The notes beneath the pieces are model-generated. The model saw only the letters and a program-made list of their open reading frames with translations. It made no database searches and was not told where the DNA came from. The translations under genes were made by a program, and so were the position numbers. This document shows, piece after piece, positions 3,643-24,700 of a DNA stretch of 24,700 bases (positions within the stretch are counted from its first letter, which is position 1; each line of letters opens with the position of its first letter). This DNA comes from a virus, in IMG/VR virus record IMGVR_UViG_3300009177_000110, positions 1-24,700 of that record. The stretch is one strand, 5' to 3'.

Positions 3643-6600
3643 AGAACATGCCGGCCTGGCGCGGATCGCCGGCCTGGTCGATCTCGTCAGCCATGCCGCG
3701 GATGTTCTCGGCGATGCGCTTTGGCGCGCGCGCATCGGCCTCGAGCATGTGCATGATCGCTGCCACCTGTGGCGACGCTTCGCCGCCGATCAGCGAGCCC
3801 TGCGCGAGCGCCTGATCGACCTTCTGGCCAGCTTCGCGCGCATCGCTGAAGCGGCGCACCGCCTCGACGAGGTCGGGCACGAAGTCGCGGCCCGCTCGAG
3901 CGCCGGCGTCCAGCAGGTCGCGCAGCCTGGCCACCGCGGGCGCCGCGCGCAGCATGCCGGCCAGCACGTTGCGCACGTTCGCGTCGGTCGACTCGGTCAT
4001 CATCGCGACGAGGTCGACGTCTTGGTACGCTTTCGAGAAGATCGCATTGCGGATCCGGTTCGCACCGCGCTGCGAGAGCTTGCCGTCTGCCGTCATCAGC
4101 TGGCCATGCTCGCTCGGGCTGGCGACGTAGCGCATGAACTGCCGGATGAATTCTTGCGAGCCGCCGGCCAGCTGGCCATCGTCGCCCGTCACAAGGCCCT
4201 CGAGGTCGGGCAGCCTGAGCGCGTCGCTCTTGGCCTGCTCGGCATCGCTCATGCCGGCGACCGAGCTTTCGTTTGCCTGGCGCGCGAATTCGGCGCGATC
4301 GCGATCTCCGAGCGCCTCGCGCACCAGCACCGGACGCTCGTAGCGCGCGACGTCGTTGGAGCTCAACCCGAAGCGCCCGGCGTGCTCCTTGAGCCACTGG
4401 CGATAGTGCTCCGCGTCGCCGGCGGCGTAGGCGCGGCGCAGCGCGATCGTGCGTGCGTTGCCCGACTCGACGACGGCGTCGGATCCGATGATGGGCGCAC
4501 CGTCTGAGGCCTTATAGCTTTCGGCCAGGAGCTCGGGCTTGATGTTGCCGGCCATGCGCGCGATCTGCGCCTCGCTGGCGTCGCGCGAGCGATCGCGCGG
4601 CTGCAGTTCCTTCGGGAAAGCCGGATTCACGCCGAGCGCGTCGTCGTGCGATGTCACCAGCTGGCCAGCGTCGACCAACCGGTAACGGACAGGCACCTCA
4701 ACCCCCCGCTCAGTGGTCGCAATAGTCTGCCGGCCGATCGGGTTGTCGTCTAAAATCGGACGCGGAGGTGCAGAAATGTTGCCAAGATCGTTCCCTGCCG
4801 GGACCGAGTTTTTCGACGTCGAAGGCGTGCCGGTGACTCGTTCAGCCGAGTACGCGGTGCGCGCCTGGGACGCCGATCCGCCGCGCAGGTTCCCGCTCGA
4901 GTCGCTGGCCCGAAACGGCACGCGAGTGCTCGAACCGGCGTTCCGCAAACTCGTCGCCGACCGCCACGCCGCGTCGTAGATCGCCGACTGGCGCGCCTCG
5001 AGGTCGCGCAGCTGCGCCGCCTCTTGCGGTGTGGGATCCCGACCCTCCTTGTCGGCCTGGCGGCGCACCGCCTCGGCCTGCTCATAGAGCGGATGCGCCT
5101 CCTTCTTGGCCGCGATCATTTCCGGGACGTTGACCTGCACCTCGGAGGCGTGGCCATTGACGCGCACGTTCGCCTTGATGTCGCGATACCCGTCGACCGT
5201 CGGCGCCGGCGTGCCCTCGATGAGACTGTTACGCAGGCCCTCGAGCTTGCCGAACTTCGCCTCAAGCGCCTTGATCGCGTCCGGCACCGCGCCGATGTCG
5301 CGCAGGACGATCGTGCCGCGCACCAGATCCTTGATCTGGCTGGCGTCGCCCTTGTAGTCGACGAGGATCTTCTCGGTCGCGCGGCTTGGCACCTTGATCG
5401 GCGCGACGATCACCTGGCGCGTCGCGTCGCCCAGCTGACGCCCGACGGCCTCGAGTGCGCTCCTGTAGATCGGGTGCGCCTGGTCGGCAGCGCGGTACTG
5501 CTTGAGGATCGCCGAATGCACGTCAGCCGGCACGTCGCCTCGAGCAGCCAGGTAGTCGGCCGCGCGGCGCTCGCCGGAGTTGGGCAGGCGCACCGAGTCG
5601 GTTGCCGAGCGCGAAGGCAGGCCCTTGCGCTGCTGGAAGTCCTTGGCCTTCGCGAGCAGCTGCTCGACGGGCAGGTCGACGCGCATGATGTTGATCGGCT
5701 CGCCCCGCTCCGAGGCGACAACCCAGCGATGGTGCCCATCGAGCACGCGATCGTCGCGTGACACGATGATGCGGTTCTTGTCGTCGTAGCGGCCGCCTTC
5801 GACCTCCTTGCGCAAGAAGTCGATGTTCTCGAGGTTGTAGTCCTTCTGGGTCGCCTTCAGGCTCGCGGCCGGCACCGTCTGCTGCTCGGTCTTCACGCCG
5901 GCGGCGTTCAGTTCCTTCACAAACTCGGCCTGCGCGCCCTTGGGCACGACGGGCATGTCGGCCCGCTTGATCCCCTTGCTGTCGCGGAAGAGCTCGGCTA
6001 CACGCTCGCCGGCTTGTCCCCCGGCAGGCTCTGCACCTTGCCGAACGGCTCCGGCCGCTGCATTGCCGTCGGCCCGGGGTTGTTCGCCCCCGGCTGCAGC
6101 TTCGCCGCGAGCGCCTTCTGCAGGTCGCCGTAGGCCCTCGCTGCTGAGATCACCTTGCTGGACTTGAGCCTCACGTGCCTTCCCCTCGTCGATGATGCGC
6201 TGGATCTCACGATCGAACACCCTCGGGCTGTTCTCGTGCTGCTTGCCTGCTCGATCGACGGCGGCCGCATCGTACTGCATGGCCTGCCACGTGTCTTTCG
6301 AGCGGCGCTGCTCTGCCTCGCTGAGCTTGTGAGCCTTCGCCCACTTCGCTTCCGCCTCGGCGCGCGCGATCACGGCGTCGACGGCGCGATCGCTGGTGAT
6401 CTCGTGCACCTCGGGCACCGGGATCGTTTCGACCTCGGCGCCGCTGGGTTCAGGCTTGGCGGCCGGCTGCTTCGGCGGCTCCGGCGCGAGCTTCTCCGCG
6501 CGCTCCCGGAACTTGCCGGCGAGCTCGGTGTCGCTGGTCGCGTCGGCCAGCTTCCGATACTCCGCGGCGCGCTTCGTGTCGCTGTCGCGCTTGCGCTCGG

Positions 6601-7789
6601 CGGCGATCTCGCGGTCGATGTCCTTGATGATCTGCGGGTCGGTCGCCTGATCCCGCAGCGAAGTGAGCTCACGCTCGCGCTTCGTCGCCGGCCGGGTTCC
6701 ACGTGAAACCGCGGGCGCTGGGGCCGGCGCGATGCCTGGAAGCGGCGCTTGCGCGGTCGGCGGCGCCGGCGGCGGGGGAGCCTTCGGAGCGGGCGGCGCC
6801 GGCGGTGCGCCCTTGTCCGGGGTGAACGCCTTCGTCGGGCTGCCCTTCACCGGCTCGTCTGGGCCGAGCGCATAGCGCACCTTCGCCTTGAGCTTGCGCT
6901 CCTTGAAGTTTTGGAGCGCCTTGCGGATCAGCGTCATCGCCGGCAACGGCACGCTGCCACCGCTGAGCAGGTAGGTGCTCATGGTGTCGAGCGCAGTCAG
7001 CAGCGCCGACGCCGTGTTCGACGTGTTCACGGCGCCCGGAACGGCGGTGTAGACATCGCTGGCCAGGTCGCGCACGTCGCGCAGCTGCTCCGCGCCCTTG
7101 CCGCCGAACAGGATCTCGAGGCGGCCGTCGCGATCGAGCTTCTTCACCGCGGCGTTGAGCTTGTCCGCGGAGACCGTCGGATTGCCGCGCTCGTCGCGCA
7201 CGGCGCTCTGCGTGGCCTGCTCCTTCAGCCAGTCGATCGTCTTGCCGCGCAGGTCATTCCACGCCTGCACGCCCTTGTCGCCGGCCGTGGTGAGCGTGCG
7301 GCGAACGTTCGTCAGATCCTCGGCGCTCGCGTTGAGAACCGAGCGATTGAACACGTCGGCGATCGCGGTCTTGCGGTCGCTGCTGCCCTTCTTCAAGCCG
7401 ATCAGGTCGCGGATCACACCCTGATTCTTGAACTCGGCCGCGTAGTCGGCGTACAGCTTGCGCGCCTTCTGGTAGAGCTCGCCGCCGCGGTCCTGCGTCG
7501 ACACGTCAATCGCGGCCTTGAGCTCGCCGGCGAAGTGCGCATTCGTTTCGTCCTTGCCGCCGTTGCTGCCGACTACCTTGCGTAGCTCGTTGAACTCGTC
7601 GAGCGTGAGCTCGCCCGGGATCAGTTCACCGTCCGCGCCGCGCGCCGCTCCTCCCAGCCGCACGAGCTCGTTTTCGGCGGCCCCAATGACCCCGGCGTTA
7701 CCCTTGCTTGACTGCACTTCGTTGAGCTTGCGCACGAGTGTCGGTCGGCACTGGCTCTGAAGTCTCGCCGGCTTCCTTGGCTGCGTCAT
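3641..7789 (-). CDS. Giant polyvalent virion protein, C-terminal part (ParB-like, RelA/SpoT-like, DdrB-ParB-like)
   Basis: The open frame encodes up to 1382 residues. Visible order, numbered from the ATG at 7789: helical region (20-310); Pro/Ala linker (325-360); charged helices (365-540); ParB-like domain (about 609-720) with NRIIVSRDDRVLDGHHRW; RelA/SpoT-like region (about 770-895) with DLVRGTIVLRD, DGYRDIKANVRV and EVQVNV; DdrB-ParB-like domain (about 1015-1190) with ELQPRDRSRD, VESGNARTIALRRAY and YRQWL; and a helical tail. Such domain mixtures define phage polyvalent proteins, packaged in virions and delivered with DNA; P1 DdrB belongs to an antirestriction set. Its place matches T7 gene 16. 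A 4-bp duplication separates it from its N-terminal part, and residues before about 17 are probably out-of-frame. An independent start at 7789 (AAGGA five bases upstream) is possible but weak. Confidence 0.85.
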   Translation of the reverse strand: MTQPRKPARLQSQCRPTLVRKLNEVQSSKGNAGVIGAAENELVRLGGAARGADGELIPGELTLDEFNELRKVVGSNGGKDETNAHFAGELKAAIDVSTQDRGGELYQKARKLYADYAAEFKNQGVIRDLIGLKKGSSDRKTAIADVFNRSVLNASAEDLTNVRRTLTTAGDKGVQAWNDLRGKTIDWLKEQATQSAVRDERGNPTVSADKLNAAVKKLDRDGRLEILFGGKGAEQLRDVRDLASDVYTAVPGAVNTSNTASALLTALDTMSTYLLSGGSVPLPAMTLIRKALQNFKERKLKAKVRYALGPDEPVKGSPTKAFTPDKGAPPAPPAPKAPPPPAPPTAQAPLPGIAPAPAPAVSRGTRPATKRERELTSLRDQATDPQIIKDIDREIAAERKRDSDTKRAAEYRKLADATSDTELAGKFRERAEKLAPEPPKQPAAKPEPSGAEVETIPVPEVHEITSDRAVDAVIARAEAEAKWAKAHKLSEAEQRRSKDTWQAMQYDAAAVDRAGKQHENSPRVFDREIQRIIDEGKAREAQVQQGDLSSEGLRRPAEGARGEAAAGGEQPRADGNAAAGAVRQGAEPAGGQAGERVAELFRDSKGIKRADMPVVPKGAQAEFVKELNAAGVKTEQQTVPAASLKATQKDYNLENIDFLRKEVEGGRYDDKNRIIVSRDDRVLDGHHRWVVASERGEPINIMRVDLPVEQLLAKAKDFQQRKGLPSRSATDSVRLPNSGERRAADYLAARGDVPADVHSAILKQYRAADQAHPIYRSALEAVGRQLGDATRQVIVAPIKVPSRATEKILVDYKGDASQIKDLVRGTIVLRDIGAVPDAIKALEAKFGKLEGLRNSLIEGTPAPTVDGYRDIKANVRVNGHASEVQVNVPEMIAAKKEAHPLYEQAEAVRRQADKEGRDPTPQEAAQLRDLEARQSAIYDAAWRSATSLRNAGSSTRVPFRASDSSGNLRGGSASQARTAYSAERVTGTPSTSKNSVPAGNDLGNISAPPRPILDDNPIGRQTIATTERGVEVPVRYRLVDAGQLVTSHDDALGVNPAFPKELQPRDRSRDASEAQIARMAGNIKPELLAESYKASDGAPIIGSDAVVESGNARTIALRRAYAAGDAEHYRQWLKEHAGRFGLSSNDVARYERPVLVREALGDRDRAEFARQANESSVAGMSDAEQAKSDALRLPDLEGLVTGDDGQLAGGSQEFIRQFMRYVASPSEHGQLMTADGKLSQRGANRIRNAIFSKAYQDVDLVAMMTESTDANVRNVLAGMLRAAPAVARLRDLLDAGARAGRDFVPDLVEAVRRFSDAREAGQKVDQALAQGSLIGGEASPQVAAIMHMLEADARAPKRIAENIRGMADEIDQAGDPRQAGMF

Positions 7790-8888
7790 AGGCGTCCTTG
7801 ATCTCCTGCTTTGCCTTCACGGCTTTGGCCATGATCGGGTCGGTCACGCTCTTGCCGATCGCGGCGTCGTCCAGCGGACCCGCCTCGGTCTGGTCGACGA
7901 AATCGTCGAAGTTTTTCAGCAGCGCGTCGGTCTTGTCCATCTGACGCTCGCGCAGCGGCTTGCCGATCTCGGGGTTCTTGGCGGTCTCCTTCTCGAATTG
8001 CTGCTGCGTGAACGTGCGATCGACATCGCCCTTCGTGACGGGCACCGGCACCGGCAGGTTGGCGGCGCGCTCGCGGCGTTGCGTCGCGATGTCGGTCGCC
8101 TTCGCACCCACGCTGCCGGCCGGCGCTGCCTCTTCCTCGGGCAGCCGCTTGACGACGTCGGTGATCGCCTGCACCGAGCGCGCGAGACCGCCTCGAGCAG
8201 CGCCGGCGGCGTCAGCTGCAGCACCTGGCCGCGCGAGTCCTGCCGTCATGCCCTCGATCGGCCCAATGTGGCCGAGCGTGGCGGGCAGCGACTGCATCGC
8301 CGGCTCGACGGCGGTATCCATCACCTCCTGCCCGGCCGGCGAAATCTCGTCGGTGACGCTGCCACCGCCGGCGACGCGCATGTTCGCGATCGCCGGGCCG
8401 GTGATCGGGTTCGTTTGCAGGCCGCGGCGCACCAGACCCGCGCCGACCTGGCCACCCTTTGCCGCCGCGGCGCCGATCTCGTCGGTCGTGCCGCCGGTCA
8501 GGACGCCGGCCAGGCCGCCCGCAGCCATGCCGAGCGGCGCGCCGGTCAGCTGCGCGAGCATTTCAATGCCGGCCTCGACGGCGCCGACGACCTTCTCCTT
8601 GATGCCGAGCTCGCGCCGCGGCGGCAGCGTGTTCGTCTGCGGCGCCGCGGGCCGGCCCATTTCCTCGGCCGTCGGGATCGCGGCCGCTCCGGTGCGCGGC
8701 GGCGGCGCGGTCACGCCCTGCAGGCCCGTCGGCTGGCCGGGATCGACGTTGGGCAGCGAGCTCTCGACGGTCGGCGCGGCCTCCCATGGCGCATCGGCCG
8801 GAGCCTTCGCGCCGCGCTTGGCCAGGCCGCCGGCCTTCGCCTTCGGTGCCTCTTCGACGATCGGGGCGGATTCCCAGGGATCGGCCAT
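7698..8888 (-). CDS. Giant polyvalent virion protein, N-terminal part, frameshifted
   Basis: The frame encodes 396 residues from the ATG at 8888, one base after the previous stop. It opens with two PWExAP motifs (DPWESAPIVEE, APWEAAPTVES), typical of large internal phage proteins. A Pro/Ala linker follows, then a glycine/alanine-rich, membrane-active-looking stretch (about 95-160, with LTGAPLGMAAGGLAGVLTGG). The last region is helical and charged (about 270-385). The frame ends 47 bases beyond a TCGGTCGG duplication. Deleting one TCGG joins ...TSEPVP to TLVRKLNEVQSS and gives a single ORF from 8888 to 3641 of about 1747 residues. The last dozen or so residues of the present frame are therefore probably artefactual. 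The upstream start at 9056 is rejected because it runs over the preceding gene. Confidence 0.78.
   Translation of the reverse strand: MADPWESAPIVEEAPKAKAGGLAKRGAKAPADAPWEAAPTVESSLPNVDPGQPTGLQGVTAPPPRTGAAAIPTAEEMGRPAAPQTNTLPPRRELGIKEKVVGAVEAGIEMLAQLTGAPLGMAAGGLAGVLTGGTTDEIGAAAAKGGQVGAGLVRRGLQTNPITGPAIANMRVAGGGSVTDEISPAGQEVMDTAVEPAMQSLPATLGHIGPIEGMTAGLARPGAAADAAGAARGGLARSVQAITDVVKRLPEEEAAPAGSVGAKATDIATQRRERAANLPVPVPVTKGDVDRTFTQQQFEKETAKNPEIGKPLRERQMDKTDALLKNFDDFVDQTEAGPLDDAAIGKSVTDPIMAKAVKAKQEIKDAYDAAKEAGETSEPVPTDTRAQAQRSAVKQG
7741..7748. repeat. Tandem 4-bp duplication (TCGG TCGG) causing a frameshift
   Basis: The plus strand reads TCGGTCGG; the minus strand reads CCGACCGA. In the upstream frame the codons are GAG CCA GTG CCG ACC GAC, leading to a stop at 7698. 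With one CCGA removed they become GAG CCA GTG CCG ACA CTC GTG and continue to 3641. This may be a replication slippage event in the phage, or a sequencing or assembly error. Confidence 0.8.
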
Positions 8889-8889
8889 G

Positions 8890-10995
8890 TCAGGGCTTTC
8901 TGCGAGTGTTGCCGTCAGGGTCGACGAACGTGGCGCCGCTCGGCAGCTTGTTGTACGCGGCTGCAGCAGCTGCGCGGTCGCTGGGCAAGCGGAAAGGCGC
9001 ACCGCCAGCCGCAGGTGCGGCGGCAGCCGGTGGCTTCTCGCGCGGCGTGCCGGCACCGGAGTCGCCGCCGACCTTGAACTCCTTGTATCCGTTGTCCGGA
9101 CCGTAGGTGCCCTGCAGCGCGTCCATCTCTTGCTTGTAGACCTCGTAGAAGCGGGTGAGCTTCTTCTTCACGGTCGCCGCGTCGTCGTTGGCGCTCGGGA
9201 TGAACGGAGCCAGGCGCGGGAACTCGCTGGCACTCACCGCAGCGCCGCTGCGATCGTGGATGACCAGCGAGCCGAGGTCGGCGATCGCGGCGCGCGCCTC
9301 CACACCCTTGGGATCCACGCGGTTCAGGATGCCGCCTGGCAGCAGGCCTTTCAGACCCGTGGCGTTCGGATCGGCCTCTTCGCCCTCTTGCGTCGGCAGC
9401 GCACCGATCAACCGCAGCGCACGCTGCACGCGGTTGATGTTCGTGTTGTTCTCGAGCATGGCCTTTTGCGCCGGTGCGGGAACGTCCTTCAGCTTGCCGT
9501 TCGCGCCCCAATCCGACGATGGGTCGAAGCGCTTGGCCAGCGCAAGCATCTTCTCGCGGCGGTTGCCCTTCTGGCTGATCTCCGATGGCTTGAGCGTGCC
9601 GTCCGCCAGGCCCTGCACCGTGATCGCATCGTCCTCGTTGAGCGAGTCGAGCAGATCCTTGCCGGTCAGGCCCTTGGGCGGCATCGGGCCGCCGTCGGCG
9701 ACGCCCTTCGCGGCTTTGCCGGCCTTCGGCGCGCGCAGCAGGCCCTGCGCCTGCAGCTGCTGCGCAGCCTCGTCCTCGTCGATGTCGTTCGCCTCGGCAT
9801 AGTCCTTTACCGCCTGGATGTTGGCGGCCAGGCCGGTCGCCTTCGGGATCGAGCGCTCGCCTTCGATCACTGCGCCAGTCGGCTTGCCGGTCTGCGTGTC
9901 GATGCCGACGAGCTTCTCGTCCTTCTTGACGCTCTTGTATTCGACGCTCTTGGCGGGCATCTTGCCGCGCACCGCATAGAAGGCCTTCGTGAAGTCGTCC
10001 TTCCCGCTGCCGGCCTCCTTCGCGCCCTGCTCGAGCTTCGAGCGCACCTCGGGGTGATCGAGCGCCGTCGAGAGCGTCTGCATCTGCGCGGCGTACTCCA
10101 TCGCCTGATTCAGGTCGATCGCCTTCGGCGGGTCGTCGGGATGGCTCGATCGGTTCTCGGTGATCGGCGCGATGTAGTACCCGGTGGCACCTGGCGGCGC
10201 ACCCTCTTCGGCCACATGCTCGGCGCGATCGACGTCGCCGGCGGTCTTTGCCAGGCCGCTGCGCACGAACACCTTCACCACCGGCAGCACCTTGTTGGGA
10301 TCCGCGGGGTGCGGTACGAGCTTGACGATCTGCTTGCCGACGATCGTGCCGCCGTGCGGGCTGGGTTCGCCGACGCCGACCTGTAGCTCCGGAGCGAAAA
10401 GCACATTCGCGCCGCGCAGCACCGCGCCCTCGTTGCCGTACTGGATCCCGTCGTGGATGTCCGACACGGCTGTCGAGAGCTTCGACGGCTGGCCATCCTT
10501 CGACAGGAGATCGCTCGGGTCGCGGCGCGTCTGAACCATCACGGCGTGATAGAGATCCGCCGGCGAAACTGCGCCGATGTCAACCTTGCCGCTCTGCAGG
10601 TTCATCGCAATGTCCTTCGCGCGCTGCTGCTGCTGCGCGAGCAAAGGCTCGTAGCGCTTGCGCAACAGAGTGTCGCGCGCTCCCGACACTTGCGTTTGGC
10701 GGCCGCGGTAGTCCGCGCCGACGTCCTCGGGAATGTTCTTGATGCCGCCGTACTGCTGGATCAGCCCCTCACCCTCGGAGCGGATGTCCTCGAAAGACTT
10801 GTTGATCGCGTCGAGTGCGCGATCGTCCTCGAGGCGCGCGTCCTGCGCCTTCTGGCGCTCGAGCACCTGATCGGCTTGCAGGCTCGCACGCTTGTCGGCC
10901 TCTTCCGCCAGCTGCTGCCGGCGCATCCCGAGGCCGAGACCGATGCCCGACTCGAGGCCTTGTGCGGCCGCGCCGCCTACGCTCAGGCCGGCCAT
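8890..10995 (-). CDS. Large internal virion protein candidate (gp15-like position)
   Basis: A 701-residue protein with no signal peptide. The N-terminal 120 residues are glutamine- and charge-rich helix (MRRQQLAEEADKRASLQADQVLERQKAQDARLED). A mixed central region (150-380) follows, then a charged helical section. A C-terminal block (about 540-650) contains RVQRALRLIGALPTQEG, AAIADLGSLVIHDRSGAAV, SEFPRLAPFIPS and KKKLTRFYEVYKQEM, a pattern I recall in podophage structural proteins. The tail is Pro/Ala-rich and ends LPSGATFVDPDGN. Its place between the small gp14-like genes and the giant polyvalent gene matches T7 gene 15, an ejection protein packed in the capsid core. It overlaps the upstream stop by TGATG. 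The ejection role is inference from position and composition. Confidence 0.8.
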   Translation of the reverse strand: MAGLSVGGAAAQGLESGIGLGLGMRRQQLAEEADKRASLQADQVLERQKAQDARLEDDRALDAINKSFEDIRSEGEGLIQQYGGIKNIPEDVGADYRGRQTQVSGARDTLLRKRYEPLLAQQQQRAKDIAMNLQSGKVDIGAVSPADLYHAVMVQTRRDPSDLLSKDGQPSKLSTAVSDIHDGIQYGNEGAVLRGANVLFAPELQVGVGEPSPHGGTIVGKQIVKLVPHPADPNKVLPVVKVFVRSGLAKTAGDVDRAEHVAEEGAPPGATGYYIAPITENRSSHPDDPPKAIDLNQAMEYAAQMQTLSTALDHPEVRSKLEQGAKEAGSGKDDFTKAFYAVRGKMPAKSVEYKSVKKDEKLVGIDTQTGKPTGAVIEGERSIPKATGLAANIQAVKDYAEANDIDEDEAAQQLQAQGLLRAPKAGKAAKGVADGGPMPPKGLTGKDLLDSLNEDDAITVQGLADGTLKPSEISQKGNRREKMLALAKRFDPSSDWGANGKLKDVPAPAQKAMLENNTNINRVQRALRLIGALPTQEGEEADPNATGLKGLLPGGILNRVDPKGVEARAAIADLGSLVIHDRSGAAVSASEFPRLAPFIPSANDDAATVKKKLTRFYEVYKQEMDALQGTYGPDNGYKEFKVGGDSGAGTPREKPPAAAAPAAGGAPFRLPSDRAAAAAAYNKLPSGATFVDPDGNTRRKP

Positions 10996-12364: not shown

Positions 12365-12726
12365 GTGTACCGCCAGAACTCGCGTTTACCCCTCGGCCGC
12401 CACGCTGGGCCGAGCTTGCGAGCCCAGCCTTTGCGCACGGATCGGAATGCGACTGTCGTCGCGGTCAGATCGCGCGCTATCTCGAGCACGGCGGGTTCTG
12501 CGTCAGCGAGTGCACCGAACCGACTGGCCACGGCCAGCAGTACGAAGCACTCGAGCTCGGGCGGATTGTCGCCCGGGCACAGGGTCAGGACAAATAGCCC
12601 GGCCGGCCCGCTGAAACACAGCGCCTTCCCGGCGTGCCAGTCCTCGAGCGCCTCGTCTGCGGCGGCGGGTAGCTTCAGCGCCGGCCACCGCTTGTCGAGA
12701 TCGTCGACGAGGCGGTATTCGTGCAT
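12361..12726 (-). CDS. Small conserved protein at gp13 position, possible GNAT-like fold
   Basis: The 121-residue product reads MHEYRLVDDLDKRWPALKLP at the start. It contains an alternating beta-helix core (GLFVLTLCPGD, ECFVLLAVASR, AVLEIARDLTATTVAFRSVRKGWARKLG). The segment ending in the R-K-G-W-A-R-K-L motif resembles small podophage proteins sometimes described as acetyltransferase-like, but no acetyl-CoA loop is evident. The ATG at 12726 is used because it overlaps the previous stop (TGATG); longer forms in this frame run antisense-like through the LamG gene. In T7, gene 13 lies between the nozzle and the internal proteins, the same relative position. The functional call is tentative. Confidence 0.72.
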   Translation of the reverse strand: MHEYRLVDDLDKRWPALKLPAAADEALEDWHAGKALCFSGPAGLFVLTLCPGDNPPELECFVLLAVASRFGALADAEPAVLEIARDLTATTVAFRSVRKGWARKLGPAWRPRGKREFWRYT

Positions 12727-13451
12727 CACGAATTCGGGAAGGGCGCCACCGCGGGCGTGTAGTTCGCGCCGGCGTATCGGTCGACTCCCGTCGTCCACCG
12801 GAACTCGTCGAGCCAGCCGTTGAAATAGCGCGGCGCGCCCGTGATGAGTGTACCCAGCTGGCAGACGTTGAATACGTTCGTTCGCACGCTGGCGACCGCG
12901 CTCGAGGCCACCATGATGCCGTTCACGTAGATGTAGGCCGTGCTGCCGTGCACTGAGATAGCGATCTGCTGCCAGGATCCCGTCGACACAGCGCCCGGCG
13001 GGCTGTTGAAATCGAAGTTGGTTGTGCCGAGCGTGAGGTTGCGCAGGCTGAAGCGGACCGAGCCGTTCGTGCCGTCGATCTCCCACAGCAGGTCGACGTT
13101 ATTGATCCCGTTGCTCACGCTGAAAACCTCATGGTCCGTCGTCAGCGAGTTGGGATAGATGGCGATCTCGCCCGTGAAGTCACCGGTGCCAATGAGAAAG
13201 CCGCCGCTCGGCGTGCCGGTCACGTAGTCGCCCGAGCCGTCGAGCAGCAGCGAGGATGCACCGAAGAGCTTGTTTGCCGTGTCCAGCTGGGCATTGCCGA
13301 TCGCGGTCCACGTGTTCGCGATCTGATCGGTGATCACCGTACTCGCGTCGCTTCCATCGAAGTGGATCAGCGAGCGCACGTTCGCGAAGAAGGGGTCAGT
13401 CGCCGGCCCCGAAGATCCTGCCGCGAAGAGCGCCGGCGCGCAGGTGAACAT
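12726..13451 (-). CDS. LamG/concanavalin A-like lectin-fold virion protein
   Basis: A 241-residue protein. After a short N-terminus comes a LamG-type beta sandwich: VRSLIHFDGSDASTVITD, a SSLLLDGSGDYV strand, GDFTGEIAIYP, WQQIAISVHGSTAYIYVNGIMVASS, then the closing WLDEFRWTTGVDRY. These are the usual elements of LamG/Laminin_G_3 domains, which bind glycans. It probably forms part of the adsorption apparatus, being just downstream of two fibre-like genes. Its start (DPFFANVRSLIHFDG) and end (DRYAGANYTPAVAPFP) match the second lectin insert of the nozzle protein, implying paralogy. AGGAG lies seven bases before the ATG. Glycan specificity cannot be read from sequence. Confidence 0.85.
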   Translation of the reverse strand: MFTCAPALFAAGSSGPATDPFFANVRSLIHFDGSDASTVITDQIANTWTAIGNAQLDTANKLFGASSLLLDGSGDYVTGTPSGGFLIGTGDFTGEIAIYPNSLTTDHEVFSVSNGINNVDLLWEIDGTNGSVRFSLRNLTLGTTNFDFNSPPGAVSTGSWQQIAISVHGSTAYIYVNGIMVASSAVASVRTNVFNVCQLGTLITGAPRYFNGWLDEFRWTTGVDRYAGANYTPAVAPFPNS

Positions 13452-13953: not shown

Positions 13954-14700
13954 TCAGGCTCCTGATGCTTTGATGATGGCGCCGCCATCGGATGCGATCG
14001 CTGCGCGGCCCTCGTTGTCGTACAGAACGATGTCGCCGCCCTGCGCATCATCGATCAGCGCCTGCGCCAGGCCGTAGGTGATCGGCATGAACGCATCGGT
14101 CGGCTCGAGCGTTGGCAGCTGCACCGCAGCGAAGCCAGCGCCGACCCAGATCGTCGAGCCCGACGTCGCAACGCCGATCGGGATCGAATAGGTGGCCGCG
14201 CTCGGATCCTGCGTCAGCGTGCCGTCGGTGGCGATGTAGATCGCCTCGCCGGTCACAAGCGCGCTTGTCGGCAACGCGAGCGGGCCGCCGCGCTGCACCG
14301 TGATGGGCGTACCCTCGGCGCCGTCGTTCAGCGCGATGCCGATCACCGTGTGGATCATCAGCGGATCCGTCGGGTCCACCCGCGCGACGCGGCTCGGGCC
14401 GGAGACATAGAGCGCATCGAACTTCGAGACGGTAGACGACGCGGCGAGGATGATCGTGTCGGTCGCGCCCAGCTGCGCCTCGATCGCCGAAACCCGCTGC
14501 GTGAGTTGCAGCAGGGCGCGCTGCAGGTTGAGCACACTTTGCGCCGTCGTGCTCGCGTCTGCCACGCTGCCCAGGCGGATGACCTCGGCATCGAGCGCGC
14601 CCAGGCGCTGGCGGATCACGTCGATGCGAATGGCGAGATCGCGGTCGACGCGCTCAGACACGCGCAGCGGGGTCAGCGCTGGATTGCCCAGCGTGGCCAT
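13954..14700 (-). CDS. Coiled-coil plus beta-domain structural protein, fibre-associated
   Basis: A 248-residue protein. Residues about 15-80 are a charged coiled coil (DLAIRIDVIRQRLGALDAEVIRL, NLQRALLQLTQRVSAIEAQL). A beta-rich part follows (about 85-195: FDALYVSGPSRVARVDP, GTPITVQRGGPLALPTSALV, GEAIYIATDGTLT, YSIPIGVATSGSTIWVG), reminiscent of capsid- or fibre-decorating beta barrels. The C-terminal part includes FMPITYGLAQALIDDAQGGDIVLYDNEG. A trimeric fibre or attachment protein fits the layout. It starts directly at the nozzle stop (TAATG overlap), so translation is probably coupled. Family was not verified. Confidence 0.8.
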   Translation of the reverse strand: MATLGNPALTPLRVSERVDRDLAIRIDVIRQRLGALDAEVIRLGSVADASTTAQSVLNLQRALLQLTQRVSAIEAQLGATDTIILAASSTVSKFDALYVSGPSRVARVDPTDPLMIHTVIGIALNDGAEGTPITVQRGGPLALPTSALVTGEAIYIATDGTLTQDPSAATYSIPIGVATSGSTIWVGAGFAAVQLPTLEPTDAFMPITYGLAQALIDDAQGGDIVLYDNEGRAAIASDGGAIIKASGA

Positions 14701-17700
14701 TACTCGATCTCCCCGATGTCCTCGGCCGTCTGGAAGGTCTGCACGCGCGACGTGCCGATGAGCTCCTGCTCGTAGCTCTTCTTCGCCGTCGAGTCGGTCT
14801 GCACGCGAAACTCCTCGTCGCTGGTGGCCACCTTCTCGAACTGCAAGAGGCCGTCCTGATAGCCCCGCACGACGAGGTTGTCGAAGTCGTCAGCCATGAC
14901 GCGCACGAAGCTGGGCGCGTAGGGCGCGGGCACGAGGTTGAGGCGGCCGCGGTACAGGTACGCCATCAGCGAGTCGGGGTCGCCGTCGAACTGATAGATC
15001 GTCATGCCGTCGGGCACCGGCGCCGTGCTCGGCACGGGCAGATACGGCGTGGTCGGCTCGTCGTTCTCGTCGAGCGCCAGGTAGAGCGAGTCCGTCACGG
15101 GGTCGGCGTGCGCGGCGGTCGCGTGATAGGCGAGCTCGATCAGGCCGAACCCGTCGGGCTTGAGGTCCAGCGCGTAGCCGCCGCGCGTGCCACCGATGTC
15201 GCCGCCGCCGCTGTCCTCCGGCCCGTGGATCGGGTAGGGCGTCTCCGGAACCTCGAAGCTGCTGCCGGAGTACCGATCGGCGGCCGTCACGCGCACGTTG
15301 CGCACGCGGTAGTTGACGACGTCGGTCAGCGAGGTGTTGCCCTCGCAGCCGATGATGATCTTGCCGTCGGCGCTCTGCAGTCCGCTGACGTCAAGATTCA
15401 CGGTCAGCACGAGCACGCCGTTGATGTAGAAGCGCACCGGCGGGTTTGCGCCTGCGGGGATCACGAACGCCAGATGCAGGTCGGTGTTCGGGCCGTCGCC
15501 GGCGAACTGATACGTCCCGATCGGTGCGTCGAAGGGCTGCAGGATGACGTTGCCACTCGTCGTGAACCAGGCCGAGAAGAGCTCGTAGCTCAGCGCCTCA
15601 TGCCGCCAGCCGGTGACCATCTGCGAACCGGTGCTGTTGGACAGCGTCGCGTACTGCGAGGTGCCCTCGATGGTGTAGGCCTTCAGAGGATCGCGCACGA
15701 GATGCGGGCCCTCATAGACGAGCGTCGCGATCCCAGCCATGCCGAGCGCGCCCGTGCGGTACTCGTTGCCGACCACGGTCCCGGTGCCCGAAAACTGCGG
15801 CGTCGCATTGAATGGCGACTCGTCGGTCGCCCCTTCGGTGTTCAGCGACAGCAGGATCACGTCATCCCAGAACGGGTCGGACGCCGGCGGCGTCGGAGGG
15901 GTGGGCGTCGTGTCGAAAAAGAAGTGGTAGCAGTCATCGTGCGACACGCCGAGCATGCTCTCGGGTTGCAGCGCCTGCCACTGCTTGCGCGTGAAGATCC
16001 CCTTCGTGAGGTTCGCCGGCGCCGCGACGCCAGCGATGCCCATCAGGCCGTCGGGCGAGGGGAACACCACGCCGAAGCCTGCGACGTAGCTAAGACCTCG
16101 CTTGCTCACGCAGGCCTGCGGAACCTCGAGCTTCGCAGCTGCGTAGTCCGCCGGCGACTGCCCTTGCGCGACATACGGGAACGTGTGCGTCCCGATGATG
16201 ACGGCCGTGTCGATCGCGCCGATCGCGACGATGTCGGTGTCTGTGGTCAGGCGGAACGCCGGCGGCCAGGCGTGCGGCCGGTTCTGCGCGCTGAAACAAA
16301 GCTGGTTGAGTCGGAACCCGACCATGATGCCGTTCGGCAGCGCCAGGATCCCGCGCAGATCGTCGGGAGGCAGCGCCCAGCCCTCGGACTCGAGCGACTC
16401 GCCCAGCTGCGCGTCGGTGAGCGTGTCGATGTAGTCGGCCTGCGCGAGCGGGATCTCGGCGACGAAGCGGAAGATCGAGCCGGTCGGCCCGGTCACTGCG
16501 CGGTAGATCCGCTTCGTCTCGATGCCGTAGTCGATGCTGATGCCGGTCGGCACGCTGACCGAGGTCGTCACGGTCACGCTCACGCCATCGGGCCGCAGGA
16601 TCGTCGCGCTGGCTGGACTCGGTGCGCTCTCCTCGCCGAGATCATTCACCAGCGTGAAGACGTAGCTCGTCGCCACGTTCTGGATCTGCGCGTTCGTCGA
16701 GCCGCTCGCCTGAACGTGGTAGTCGGAGTAGTTGGTCTGGTACTGCGTGGCCGCGTCGTTGCTCGTGCCGTTGGCGAAGCCGCAGTAGTCGCCGTCGGAG
16801 AAGTTGTTCGTCGCTGTCACCGTGGCCAGCACGGTCGCGCCGTTCAGGATCCTTGCGGTCACCGTCTTCGTGCCGTCGACGTTGACCACGGCGTGCACGT
16901 TCATCGTGTACTCGACGCCGGCGCTAAGCGATGGCGAGAGCGCCACGCTGGCCAGCTTGGCGGTGCCGAACTGGACGCCCCAATTGGCCGTTTTCAGGAT
17001 GTAGAGCTTGCCGTCGTTGTCGTACAGCGCGCCGACGCCGTTGCCGGCACCATCGGCGCCCACGATGACGCAGGCCTGGCGGATGCTGGTGTCGCCGGCG
17101 AAGACGAAATTGTCGTTGACGTCGAGCACGAGCACGCCCGACACGCCGAAGTTGCGGAAGGCGTAGGCCTCCTGGCCAGGGTCTCGGTTCTCGTCGTACT
17201 TGCTGATGTAGAAGCCGCTGCCTTGCGTCACCTCGGCATAGCGGGCACCGATCAGCGCCGGGTTCACCGACCAGGCCGTCGCGAGCGATGCGTTGTCATC
17301 GAGCGTGTCGATCGAGAATGTGTTCGGCGTCGAGTCGACGCCCACGACGAGGGTCGGTGCCGATCCAGGCTCGGGCACGCCGATCGGGCGCGTCACGGAC
17401 GGGGGCGTGCCCCCTGGCGACTGGAACGCGAGCGAGTAGTCGGTCCATCGCGGTTGTTCATACTCGTCGGGGCCGGTCAGGTAGACGCGAAACGTCGTGT
17501 CGCCCGGGATCGGGCTGCGCGCGACGTCGACGTCGGTCTCCCAGGCCATCCACCGGTCATTGAGCAGGTAGATCGTCAGCGGCGCGATCGCCAGCCGCTC
17601 GATCTCGAGGAACTGACGCCAGGCCTCGAGGTCGCCCGACTGCAGCCGGGCATTGATCGCGCGCTGCGCGCCGTTGGGAGGCAGCGCTCGAGGCGTGAGG

Positions 17701-17741
17701 CGCGGCGCTTCGCCGCGAAACGATTCGAGTGCGATCCGCAT
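14700..17741 (-). CDS. Tail nozzle (tail tubular B-like) protein with lectin-like insertions
   Basis: A 1013-residue protein. The N-terminus (SFRGEAPRLTPRALPPNGAQ, then NARLQSGDLEAWRQF) is the usual opening of podophage nozzle proteins. The nozzle-type core continues at about 350-610: VFTLVNDLGEESAPSP, LRGILALPNGIMVGFRLNQL, FSAQNRPHAWP, GTHTFPYVAQGQSP and PSPDGLMGI. Two insertions are visible. A first beta-sandwich lies at about 136-345 (SGVLVLDVNDNFVFAGDTS, GALYDNDGKLYILKTANWG, TMNVHAVVNVDGTKTVTARI). A LamG-like domain lies at about 621-837 (VRFYINGVLVLTVNLDV, RVRNVRVTAADRYSG), after a TTPTPPTPPA linker. The nozzle caps the short tail tube and carries receptor-binding parts, and this one is longer than T7 gp12 because of the inserts. 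It is the largest intact gene here. Confidence 0.85.
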   Translation of the reverse strand: MRIALESFRGEAPRLTPRALPPNGAQRAINARLQSGDLEAWRQFLEIERLAIAPLTIYLLNDRWMAWETDVDVARSPIPGDTTFRVYLTGPDEYEQPRWTDYSLAFQSPGGTPPSVTRPIGVPEPGSAPTLVVGVDSTPNTFSIDTLDDNASLATAWSVNPALIGARYAEVTQGSGFYISKYDENRDPGQEAYAFRNFGVSGVLVLDVNDNFVFAGDTSIRQACVIVGADGAGNGVGALYDNDGKLYILKTANWGVQFGTAKLASVALSPSLSAGVEYTMNVHAVVNVDGTKTVTARILNGATVLATVTATNNFSDGDYCGFANGTSNDAATQYQTNYSDYHVQASGSTNAQIQNVATSYVFTLVNDLGEESAPSPASATILRPDGVSVTVTTSVSVPTGISIDYGIETKRIYRAVTGPTGSIFRFVAEIPLAQADYIDTLTDAQLGESLESEGWALPPDDLRGILALPNGIMVGFRLNQLCFSAQNRPHAWPPAFRLTTDTDIVAIGAIDTAVIIGTHTFPYVAQGQSPADYAAAKLEVPQACVSKRGLSYVAGFGVVFPSPDGLMGIAGVAAPANLTKGIFTRKQWQALQPESMLGVSHDDCYHFFFDTTPTPPTPPASDPFWDDVILLSLNTEGATDESPFNATPQFSGTGTVVGNEYRTGALGMAGIATLVYEGPHLVRDPLKAYTIEGTSQYATLSNSTGSQMVTGWRHEALSYELFSAWFTTSGNVILQPFDAPIGTYQFAGDGPNTDLHLAFVIPAGANPPVRFYINGVLVLTVNLDVSGLQSADGKIIIGCEGNTSLTDVVNYRVRNVRVTAADRYSGSSFEVPETPYPIHGPEDSGGGDIGGTRGGYALDLKPDGFGLIELAYHATAAHADPVTDSLYLALDENDEPTTPYLPVPSTAPVPDGMTIYQFDGDPDSLMAYLYRGRLNLVPAPYAPSFVRVMADDFDNLVVRGYQDGLLQFEKVATSDEEFRVQTDSTAKKSYEQELIGTSRVQTFQTAEDIGEIE

Positions 17742-19784: not shown

Positions 19785-19937
19785 TTAGGCGCGCTTCGTG
19801 GGCTTCTTCTTCGGGGCCTTCTTCATGGCCTTGGGCATCTGCTTGGCGTCCATCTTCATGTCCGCTTTGCTGCCCTCCTTGTAGCCCTTGTCCTTGTCGG
19901 CGGCGCTCTTCTCGAACGCCTTCGGCATCTTGCCCAT
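19785..19937 (-). CDS. Lysine-rich 50-residue peptide
   Basis: A short gene of 50 codons plus stop (ATG at 19937, TAA at 19785-19787). The product starts MGKMPKAFEKSAADKDKGYK and ends MKKAPKKKPTKRA. It is about one-third lysine, strongly basic, without hydrophobic segments, and has MPKA twice. A GGAG Shine-Dalgarno sequence lies seven bases upstream, just after a UUCG hairpin. Position between capsid and adaptor genes suggests a virion component. A polycationic peptide of this kind may bind packaged DNA or the capsid interior, which is an inference. Histone-like low-complexity tails are an alternative comparison, but no family is claimed. Confidence 0.72.
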   Translation of the reverse strand: MGKMPKAFEKSAADKDKGYKEGSKADMKMDAKQMPKAMKKAPKKKPTKRA

Positions 19938-19962
19938 GCTGGTGCTCCGATCAGGTTGAAGA

Positions 19963-19982
19963 GGCAGGCCCGAAGGCCTGCC
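19963..19982 (-). terminator. UUCG-tetraloop hairpin, possible attenuator or mRNA stabiliser
   Basis: On the minus strand GGCAGGCC-TTCG-GGCCTGCC forms a perfect 8-bp stem with the very stable C(UUCG)G loop, followed by TCTTCAACC. It lies six bases after the stop of the 69-residue gene and before the lysine-rich peptide gene. The weak U-rich tail suggests partial termination or RNA processing rather than a full stop. Confidence 0.7.
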
Positions 19983-19988
19983 GGTGGA

Positions 19989-20198
19989 TCAGCTGCCGGC
20001 CGGCGAGGTGCCCGGCGTGAGCGCGCGCTTGAACGGGCCCGAGGTGCTGCCACCGCCGCCCGGCTGATTGCCGAGGGGGTTGTTCGGGTAGCGCGCCTTG
20101 GCCTTGCCGTCGTTCTTCTGACGGTCCGAATTGATGATGTCGGGGGTCTCCTTGACGGGCATGTCCTTGCCGTACACGGAGGGGAAGCTGGTCTTCAT
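19989..20198 (-). CDS. Small polar phage protein after the capsid gene
   Basis: A 69-residue protein beginning MKTSFPSVYGKDMPVKETPD. It is polar and probably disordered, with Asn/Lys-rich and Gly-rich parts (DRQKNDGKAKARYPNNPLG, QPGGGGSTSGPFK). It has no hydrophobic core or enzymatic motif. GAAGGAG seven bases upstream is among the strongest ribosome binding sites in the window, suggesting abundant synthesis. It lies immediately downstream of the major capsid gene and is bracketed by two hairpins. A capsid decoration, head-completion or assembly role is plausible, but no family was recognised. Confidence 0.78.
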   Translation of the reverse strand: MKTSFPSVYGKDMPVKETPDIINSDRQKNDGKAKARYPNNPLGNQPGGGGSTSGPFKRALTPGTSPAGS

Positions 20199-20205
20199 CG
20201 CGAAG

Positions 20206-20212
20206 CTCCTTC
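20206..20212 (-). promoter_or_regulatory. Strong ribosome binding site of the 69-residue gene
   Basis: GAAGGAG on the minus strand, seven bases before the ATG at 20198. It fixes the start and predicts high expression. Confidence 0.7.
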
Positions 20213-22663: not shown

Positions 22664-24700
22664 CTAGTCGGCGTCGAGGTCGATCTGATCATCCATCGGC
22701 AGCATGTCGCGTAGCGCATCGTCAAGCGGATCGGGCTCGATCTGGATCGGCCCGCGAGCAGCCGGCAGGATGGCATGCAGCGCGTCGTGCAGCGGATCGC
22801 GCAGCGCCGGGAGCTCCGGCGGCGTCTGCAGCTGGGCCAGCTGGTCGCGCAGCTGGTCGATCTGCGCCTGCATGGACGCGCGGAGCTCCTCGATCGCCGC
22901 CGGCGCCACTTCCGGTTTTGCGACCGGTGCGGAGGGCGTTTCGGCCACCGCCGCCGGGGCGATGCTTGCATCGGGCAGCAGCGGTGCCGGTTCCGGCGTG
23001 AACGAAGGCGGCGCCAGGCCTCGAGCGAGCAGGCCGAGCAGCAGCGGGCTCGCCTCGGCCTTCGGCGTGGCCGGCTCTTCGTCCTTCTTCTTGCGCTTCG
23101 TCGGCCGGAATTGGACGTTGGGCAGCTTGCGCTTGATCACGCCACCACCGCGCGCGATCAGCTTCGGATCGGTGGCGATGCCGCCTGGCCGCTCGCAAGT
23201 CGCGCTATCGCTGAAGGCGACCGAGTCCTGCGCCACCGCGGTGAAGGTCTGATTCCCGAGCGCCGCGATCGCGCTGTCGCTCAGGGTGATCGAGTCGGAC
23301 GCTGCAGCGACGATCGACACCGAGGCGGCGGCCGCGTCGTCGAAGGCGATCGAGTCGGATGCGCTGGCCGCGTGATTCAGGCTTGCCTGCGCGCTGTCGG
23401 TCAGCGTGATGCTGTCCTCGGCCACCGCGATGACGCCACCGGTCACGATGCTGCCGATCGCGCTGTCGGTGAAGCTGATCGTGTCGGTGCCGTCGGCCGG
23501 CAGCGTCACGCCGGAGACCGCGGAGTCGCTGAACGTCACGCTGTCGGTCGCCGCGGCGATCTGCGTGAGCGCGCCGATCGCGCTGTCGCTGAAGGTCACC
23601 GTGTCCGCGCCAGCTGCGACGGCCTGGATGGCGGCCGCGCTCGAGTCGGAGAACGAGACCGTATCGCTGCCCGTGGCAACTAGCGAGCTCTGCGCGCTCG
23701 CCGAATCGCTGAAGCTGACCGTGTCGGATGCCGCCGAGACCAAGCTCGAGATCGTCACCGCCGAATCGCTGAAGGAGACGGTATCGGTCGCCGCGGAGAC
23801 GAGGCTCGAGATCGCGACGGCCGAGTCGCTGAACGACAGGGTATCGGCCGCGACTGCGATCTGCGACACGCCGGCGACGGCGCTGTCGCTGAAGGTGACC
23901 GAATCGGTGCCGACGCTGATCCTGTTGGTCGCCGAGATCGCGCTGTCTGTGAAGGCGACCGTGTCGGCGGCCACCGTCACGAGCGTGCTGATCGCGACCG
24001 CACTGTCGGAGAACGTCACCGAGTCGGATGCGCTCGCGAAGTGGCCGCTTGTCGCCGACCGCAGCGTGAACGGGTCGAACATGCCCGCCGGCGTGTAGCT
24101 GGCGACGTCGAGGCCGAACCAGCCCGCCGGCGTCTCGGCGATGTTGCGCGGCACGCGGCGGGGCAGCGCCGGCGTGCCGTAGACCGTCTGCGGGATGATC
24201 GCCGAGCGCGGCCGGAACAGATATGGCTGACTGCCGATCCCGTTCACCAGACCATAGCCGCGCACATACCCCTGCTTCACCGGGAAGAAGCGGCCATAGG
24301 TGCCGTTCGTCTGCGCGGCGTCGGTCGTCACGCCCGGATAGGTCTCCGAGCTCCATGTCCAAGTGCCGGCGACGTTGGTGAGGTAGTAGAGCGTGTTCGT
24401 GCCGACGTACACGACGAACCGGTCGTCGACGTCGTCGTACAGGACCGCGCTCCATGATCCGGCCGACGGCGCGGTGCCAGCTGCCGAGAGAGCGGTGTAG
24501 TCGTTCGCCGTGAGGTTGCTGCAGTCGAGCAGGCTCGCGGTGCCGGCGCCGCGCCACAGGATCAGCGCGATGTTTCGCTTGCTGTCGAGCGCCGAGAAGT
24601 ATTCGCCGGCGGTGAGCACCGTCTTGCCGGTGAAGACCGTCGTCGCATCGCTCGCGATGTCGTACGACTGGATCGTCGCCAGGCTGGGCGGGTACTTCGC
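22664..24700 (-). CDS. Large repeat-bearing virion protein, 5' end cut by window edge
   Basis: At least 678 residues; the frame is open to the right edge, so the GTG at 24619 is not necessarily the start. The visible N-terminal part is aromatic and beta-rich (DDRFVVYVGTNTLYYLTNVAGTWTWSSETYPG), perhaps a propeller or sandwich. Fourteen 20-residue repeats follow (24028-23201) with consensus D-[ST]-[VIL]-x-[FL]-[ST]-D-S-A. After a basic patch (RPTKRKKKD) comes a Pro/Ala linker, a short coiled coil (IEELRASMQAQIDQLRDQLAQL), two DPLxDALxxxLP motifs and an acidic end (MDDQIDLDAD). Its position before the scaffold suggests a head or fibre component. Repeats may form an extended beta-rich stalk; family is not identified. 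Confidence 0.8.
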   Translation of the reverse strand, partial: AKYPPSLATIQSYDIASDATTVFTGKTVLTAGEYFSALDSKRNIALILWRGAGTASLLDCSNLTANDYTALSAAGTAPSAGSWSAVLYDDVDDRFVVYVGTNTLYYLTNVAGTWTWSSETYPGVTTDAAQTNGTYGRFFPVKQGYVRGYGLVNGIGSQPYLFRPRSAIIPQTVYGTPALPRRVPRNIAETPAGWFGLDVASYTPAGMFDPFTLRSATSGHFASASDSVTFSDSAVAISTLVTVAADTVAFTDSAISATNRISVGTDSVTFSDSAVAGVSQIAVAADTLSFSDSAVAISSLVSAATDTVSFSDSAVTISSLVSAASDTVSFSDSASAQSSLVATGSDTVSFSDSSAAAIQAVAAGADTVTFSDSAIGALTQIAAATDSVTFSDSAVSGVTLPADGTDTISFTDSAIGSIVTGGVIAVAEDSITLTDSAQASLNHAASASDSIAFDDAAAASVSIVAAASDSITLSDSAIAALGNQTFTAVAQDSVAFSDSATCERPGGIATDPKLIARGGGVIKRKLPNVQFRPTKRKKKDEEPATPKAEASPLLLGLLARGLAPPSFTPEPAPLLPDASIAPAAVAETPSAPVAKPEVAPAAIEELRASMQAQIDQLRDQLAQLQTPPELPALRDPLHDALHAILPAARGPIQIEPDPLDDALRDMLPMDDQIDLDAD
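23201..24028 (-). repeat. Fourteen-copy 60-bp (20-residue) degenerate tandem repeat
   Basis: Each unit encodes about 20 residues built on D-S/T-V-x-F-S-D-S-A followed by 10-11 variable small or hydrophobic residues. Examples are SDTVSFSDSASAQSSLVATG and TDSVTFSDSAVAGVSQIAVA. Fourteen copies are readable; copies 10 and 13 carry three extra residues. Codons differ between copies, so the array is old or under protein-level selection, not a recent DNA expansion. Confidence 0.9.

Follow-up and report, generated by a model that had tools for sequence, protein, structure and literature searches.

A podoviral ejection-protein gene with a DdrB-type C-terminal extension, read as two overlapping frames

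The window analyzed here, a stand-alone IMG/VR virus record of 24.7 kb, contains a leftward gene for a podovirus ejection (internal virion) protein, the type being probably that of P22 gp16. The gene is read as two overlapping frames, and it is highly probable that a single gene, composed of this ejection protein and a polyvalent extension, has been split by one lesion within positions 7739-7748. The split itself carries little weight, a broken gene being ordinary as a finding; the identity of the gene is more useful, and what deserves to be retained is its domain fusion.

Two frames of one gene

The two leftward frames, termed A and B, overlap by 92 nt (7698-7789), as stated in the first-pass annotation of this DNA. 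The passage from A to B corresponds to a shift of +1, equivalently -2 or +4, and can be obtained by the gain of one or four nucleotides or by the loss of two. An alternative, longer frame A would start with GTG at 9056 and overlap the upstream gene, while a purine-rich AAGGA is located 6 nt upstream of the first ATG of frame B (7789). The region comprises the following features:

8890-10995, minus strand: upstream neighbour (701 aa), occupying the place of a further ejection protein (phrog_601; gene order as AH02 gp12-gp13)
8888-7698, minus strand: frame A, ATG at 8888, 396 aa
8888-7701, minus strand: frame A as N-terminal part of the ejection protein (AH02 gp13 and ctnlZ23 matches up to residue 380-383; codon log-odds positive until about 7745)
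7789-3641, minus strand: frame B, 1382 aa
7789-7739, minus strand: stretch of frame B between its first ATG and the lesion, open, yet non-coding by codon usage
7748-7739, minus strand: lesion site, 10 nt (12 nt in 126 of 146 relatives)
7741-7748, no strand assigned: TCGGTCGG doublet, a chance-frequency feature
7738-6850, minus strand: about 300 aa of frame B that complete the ejection protein, 34-48% identity to relatives
7700-7698, minus strand: premature stop of frame A
6007-5615, minus strand: DGHHRW-motif region, matching phrog_2859 (E 2e-21, frame-B residues 602-721)
5482-5099, minus strand: RelA/SpoT-type nucleotide pyrophosphokinase-like region (phmmer E 3e-10, frame-B residues 770-897)
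4735-3644, minus strand: DdrB-type C-terminal region (ddrB-ParB, PF18763, at frame-B residues 1028-1158; 64% identity to L088 over 364 aa)

Frame A matches gp13 of Pseudomonas phage AH02 as well as the ctnlZ23 protein, and frame B matches the rest of the same two proteins. Searching the phage collection directly with DNA yielded no match, and exact 18-mers flanking the lesion led to no near-identical contig (one search returned none, another three contigs, none of them homologous). Single-sequence protein scans of IMG/VR did not yield relatives either, and small profiles were required, which we derived from AH02 gp13, ctnlZ23 and an Acinetobacter plasmid homologue. With these profiles 479 and 186 relatives were confirmed in IMG/VR, the best 80 of each being retained, and eight in bacterial genomes. 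The resulting set comprised 173 loci, 166 of which carry both halves; these partly overlap or repeat each other and represent 146 distinct sequences.

Among the matches listed, both halves reside in a single ORF in every one of the 166 loci, i.e., in all 146 distinct sequences, and the same arrangement is seen in the annotated records for AH02 gp13, ctnlZ23 and pAS6-2. While 165 of the loci were scored as single ORFs straightaway, the remaining one (L100) was inspected by hand and rejected as a two-ORF relative, as the tblastn match had overrun an upstream stop and both halves share one frame. Homologues existing as two separate, overlapping genes, which the first-pass annotation had named among the observations that would speak against its reading, were thus looked for and found in none of the 166 loci among the matches listed.

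Codon usage leads to the same picture. A log-odds model, for which 14 other genes of the window served as the training set, placed the best switch point from A to B at 7739-7742, and the change is so clean that the broken frame exceeds chance. Frame A is native up to residue ~383, its final ~13 residues being out of frame, whereas frame B scores as non-coding from ATG 7789 to the lesion and is still coding throughout the remaining ~1365 codons. When the entire minus strand of the 24.7 kb was scanned, 7739-7742 was the sole frame change away from gene boundaries; a second irregularity, at 19785-20210, was rejected because it consists of two small genes. Frames A and B are therefore halves of one gene, in line with the earlier proposal of one ancestral gene with a single frame lesion. 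The intact coding of frame B downstream, together with the lack of any other unexplained switch, argues that the lesion is recent or artificial. More generally, a single gene may appear as two neighbouring ORFs in an assembled phage contig and is then liable to be mis-annotated as two genes.

Position and nature of the lesion

The lesion site is bounded by two conserved anchors, the codon for Val-380 of frame A (7749-7751; context ...GE..xPV, conserved among relatives) and a conserved Leu codon (7736-7738) at the conserved, hydrophobic start of a helix, which reads LVRKL in the window and LVTKL in L088, a relative described below. From this point to ...NAGVI..AE.ELVRLGG the two proteins align without gaps. 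Among the matches listed, the anchors are separated by four residues (12 nt) in 126 of the 146 distinct relatives, by 14-18 residues in 19 and by two residues in one, the distant L006; the 40 best-scoring relatives have a gap of four residues in 37 cases and of 18 in three. With 10 nt where relatives keep 12, the window is short by two nucleotides and not long by four. As the best relative among the matches listed is 48% identical to the window protein, the ancestral spacing is deduced by homology, and because the linker is longer in about 14% of the relatives, the deletion may also have been larger.

Most simply, then, a net loss of two nucleotides within 7739-7748 would have shifted the frame, so that frame A would stop 13 codons past the lesion. 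As written, the product would be a truncated N-terminal fragment of 396 aa, probably non-functional, and the C-terminal fragment would be made, at most, via fortuitous internal initiation at ATG 7789; the split gene has presumably lost its function. The two alternatives raised in the first-pass annotation, mutation or sequence error, are both retained: the lesion would be either an assembly or sequencing artefact, towards which we lean slightly, or a recent null mutation in this phage or prophage copy. Long-read errors do not typically take the form of a two-base deficit outside a homopolymer, and for this reason a true mutation, e.g., in a decaying prophage, is kept in consideration. In phages where this was tested, ejection proteins are necessary for infectivity (PMC8954989); this requirement for the family, combined with a single lesion and intact downstream codons, points to a lesion that is either recent or artefactual.

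The same TCGGTCGG that had been reported at 7741-7748 is indeed present there and had been interpreted as a tandem duplication of TCGG. The location of that event agrees with the lesion site, while its mechanism is not supported, two nucleotides being missing and not four extra. A gain of TCGG through slippage, possibly reversible, is very unlikely: removal of one unit of the doublet also restores the frame, but it would leave an anchor gap of two residues, and thereby imply an ancestor with a linker that, among the matches listed, only the distant L006 has, and the codon switch falls at the 3' edge of the doublet and not within it. Furthermore, doublets of this kind occur at chance frequency. 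The 24.7 kb contain 87 separate arrays of 4-bp units, whereas 60 first-order Markov simulations gave 97.6 on average (range 70-120). For any 92-nt stretch, the probability of at least one such array is about 0.28; the 8-mer TCGGTCGG, either strand being counted, recurs at 1546 and 14096. Two copies of a 4-mer are a poor phase-variation tract, and with two units at chance frequency and all relatives in frame the site does not resemble a slipped-strand contingency locus. The suggested on/off switch is consequently not supported, also because none of the relatives found shows an "off" state and codon usage changes frame (7739-7742) where the doublet has its 3' edge on the coding strand; as every relative found has the gene whole, an ordinary mutation or an assembly error is the better explanation.

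Programmed recoding from A to B, whether by +1, by -2 or by a 4-nt hop between identical CCG proline codons, would yield the full protein at a fixed ratio. The frames overlap, each is coding on its own side of the junction, the CCG codons lie 4 nt apart and would permit re-pairing, and Mu-like tail assembly chaperone genes provide a precedent for -2 shifting in other phages. Nevertheless, recoding is very improbable here, since none of the 166 relatives among the matches listed uses it and neither overlap nor shift is conserved, no classical slippery heptamer or homopolymer was seen at the junction, and we know of no two products made in a ratio from a gene of this kind. Still further from what we would expect is that the split is maintained deliberately by recoding at CCG-ACC-GAC, which would give a short ejection protein and, in smaller amounts, a full-length one with RelA/SpoT-like and DdrB effectors; a toxin-like extension would then be present on only some of the packaged copies. 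A true gene fission into two proteins, the C-terminal one started at ATG 7789 behind AAGGA, could draw on this plausible ribosome-binding site and on a frame B that is intact to 3641, but is hardly credible given that 7789-7740 is non-coding in frame B by codon usage and that the break is located inside a continuous domain common to all relatives.

The ejection protein and its extension

Ejection proteins are normally carried inside the virus particle and assist the entry of DNA into the bacterium. The ejection region matches AH02 gp13 strongly and the "DNA transfer protein" of Aeromonas phage 4_4512 weakly (E 3e-5), and homology to annotated DNA-transfer or internal virion proteins covers its full length. 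It has no Pfam family of its own, and its profile (A3) gave no significant match against the PDB; with no solved structure matched, the label "P22 gp16-like" is based on gene order and record annotation. An N-terminal SLT transglycosylase or "internal virion protein with endolysin" domain was present in 5-6 of 19 relatives tested. The earlier view of a predicted virion-internal protein is supported.

Behind the ejection part, the extension would be arranged as a ParB-like region, a RelA/SpoT-like region and a DdrB-type ParB domain. The first of these, the DGHHRW-motif region (5615-6007), had no Pfam match above cut-off and is regarded by us as putatively ParB-like. For the second, the (p)ppApp synthetase Tas1 (6ox6) is the nearest relative with a solved structure, and the alignment of 5099-5482 (minus strand) to Tas1 shows conserved K/R, D, GY and EVQ motifs. 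Five phage records match this region weakly to moderately, a scan of IMG/VR gave no relatives, and a single-sequence structure model was poor (mean pLDDT 49.6) and was set aside. The DdrB-type domain scores 133.3 bits for PF18763 (cut-off 27.6), by which the earlier reading as an antirestriction-type protein has been borne out for the C-terminus. Frame B therefore combines several unrelated effector domains (RelA/SpoT-like, phrog_2859 region, DdrB), and the term "polyvalent", originally applied to the whole gene, is appropriate for the C-terminal extension with its Tas1-like and DdrB-type regions.

Two other observations concern further proteins of the window. The protein encoded at 22664-24619 (minus strand) contains about 15 degenerate DSVTFSDSAV-type repeats and weakly matches phrog_12240. 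A 241-aa protein (12726-13451, minus strand) and part of a 1013-aa protein (14700-17741, minus strand) share LamG-like sequence as judged by eye (YINGVLV / RVRNVRVTAADRYSG vs. YVNGIMV / EFRWTTGVDRYAG), which suggests a repeated lectin-like module in virion proteins.

Comparison with known systems

AH02 gp13 (MZ501271) and the ctnlZ23 protein (UOF80810) resemble the window protein in that both halves are homologous, colinear and placed after other ejection proteins. They differ from it, at 31-40% identity, in being encoded by a single ORF and in lacking the polyvalent C-terminal extension. The closest architecture among the matches listed was found in L088, a Burkholderiales MAG contig (CALMQI010000252.1) with one intact ORF of 1795 aa (4519-9903) that unites the ejection and DdrB halves, the last 364 aa being 64% identical to the window. 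Its middle slot is occupied by a zeta-toxin domain (7753-8549; PF06414, E 3e-8), whereas the window has the ParB-like and RelA/SpoT-like regions in this place, an apparent case of effector swapping. Within the stored DNA, L088 is the only one among the 173 loci (best-80 sets included) with a DdrB region, fused in the same ORF, and since its middle slot is different, the extension is uncommon and, it seems, a module added to an ejection protein that is itself common. This suggests that, in short-tailed phages, a protein delivered with the DNA serves as carrier of exchangeable effector domains.

According to Iyer et al. (2017; PMC5512222), DdrB-ParB as well as RelA/SpoT domains occur in phage polyvalent proteins, and phage P1 packages its DdrB in the head. 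The window protein has a DdrB-type ParB domain and a RelA/SpoT-type region in common with these proteins (PMC5512222); unlike them, it carries the extension behind an ejection-protein N-terminus, and a metallopeptidase domain was not detected in it. With the Tas1 toxin domain (6ox6) it shares the RelA/SpoT-type region and its conserved motifs, about 128 residues being aligned at E 3e-10, a likeness at the level of sequence; in contrast to Tas1, the window region would be delivered, if at all, by the virion and not by a type VI system.
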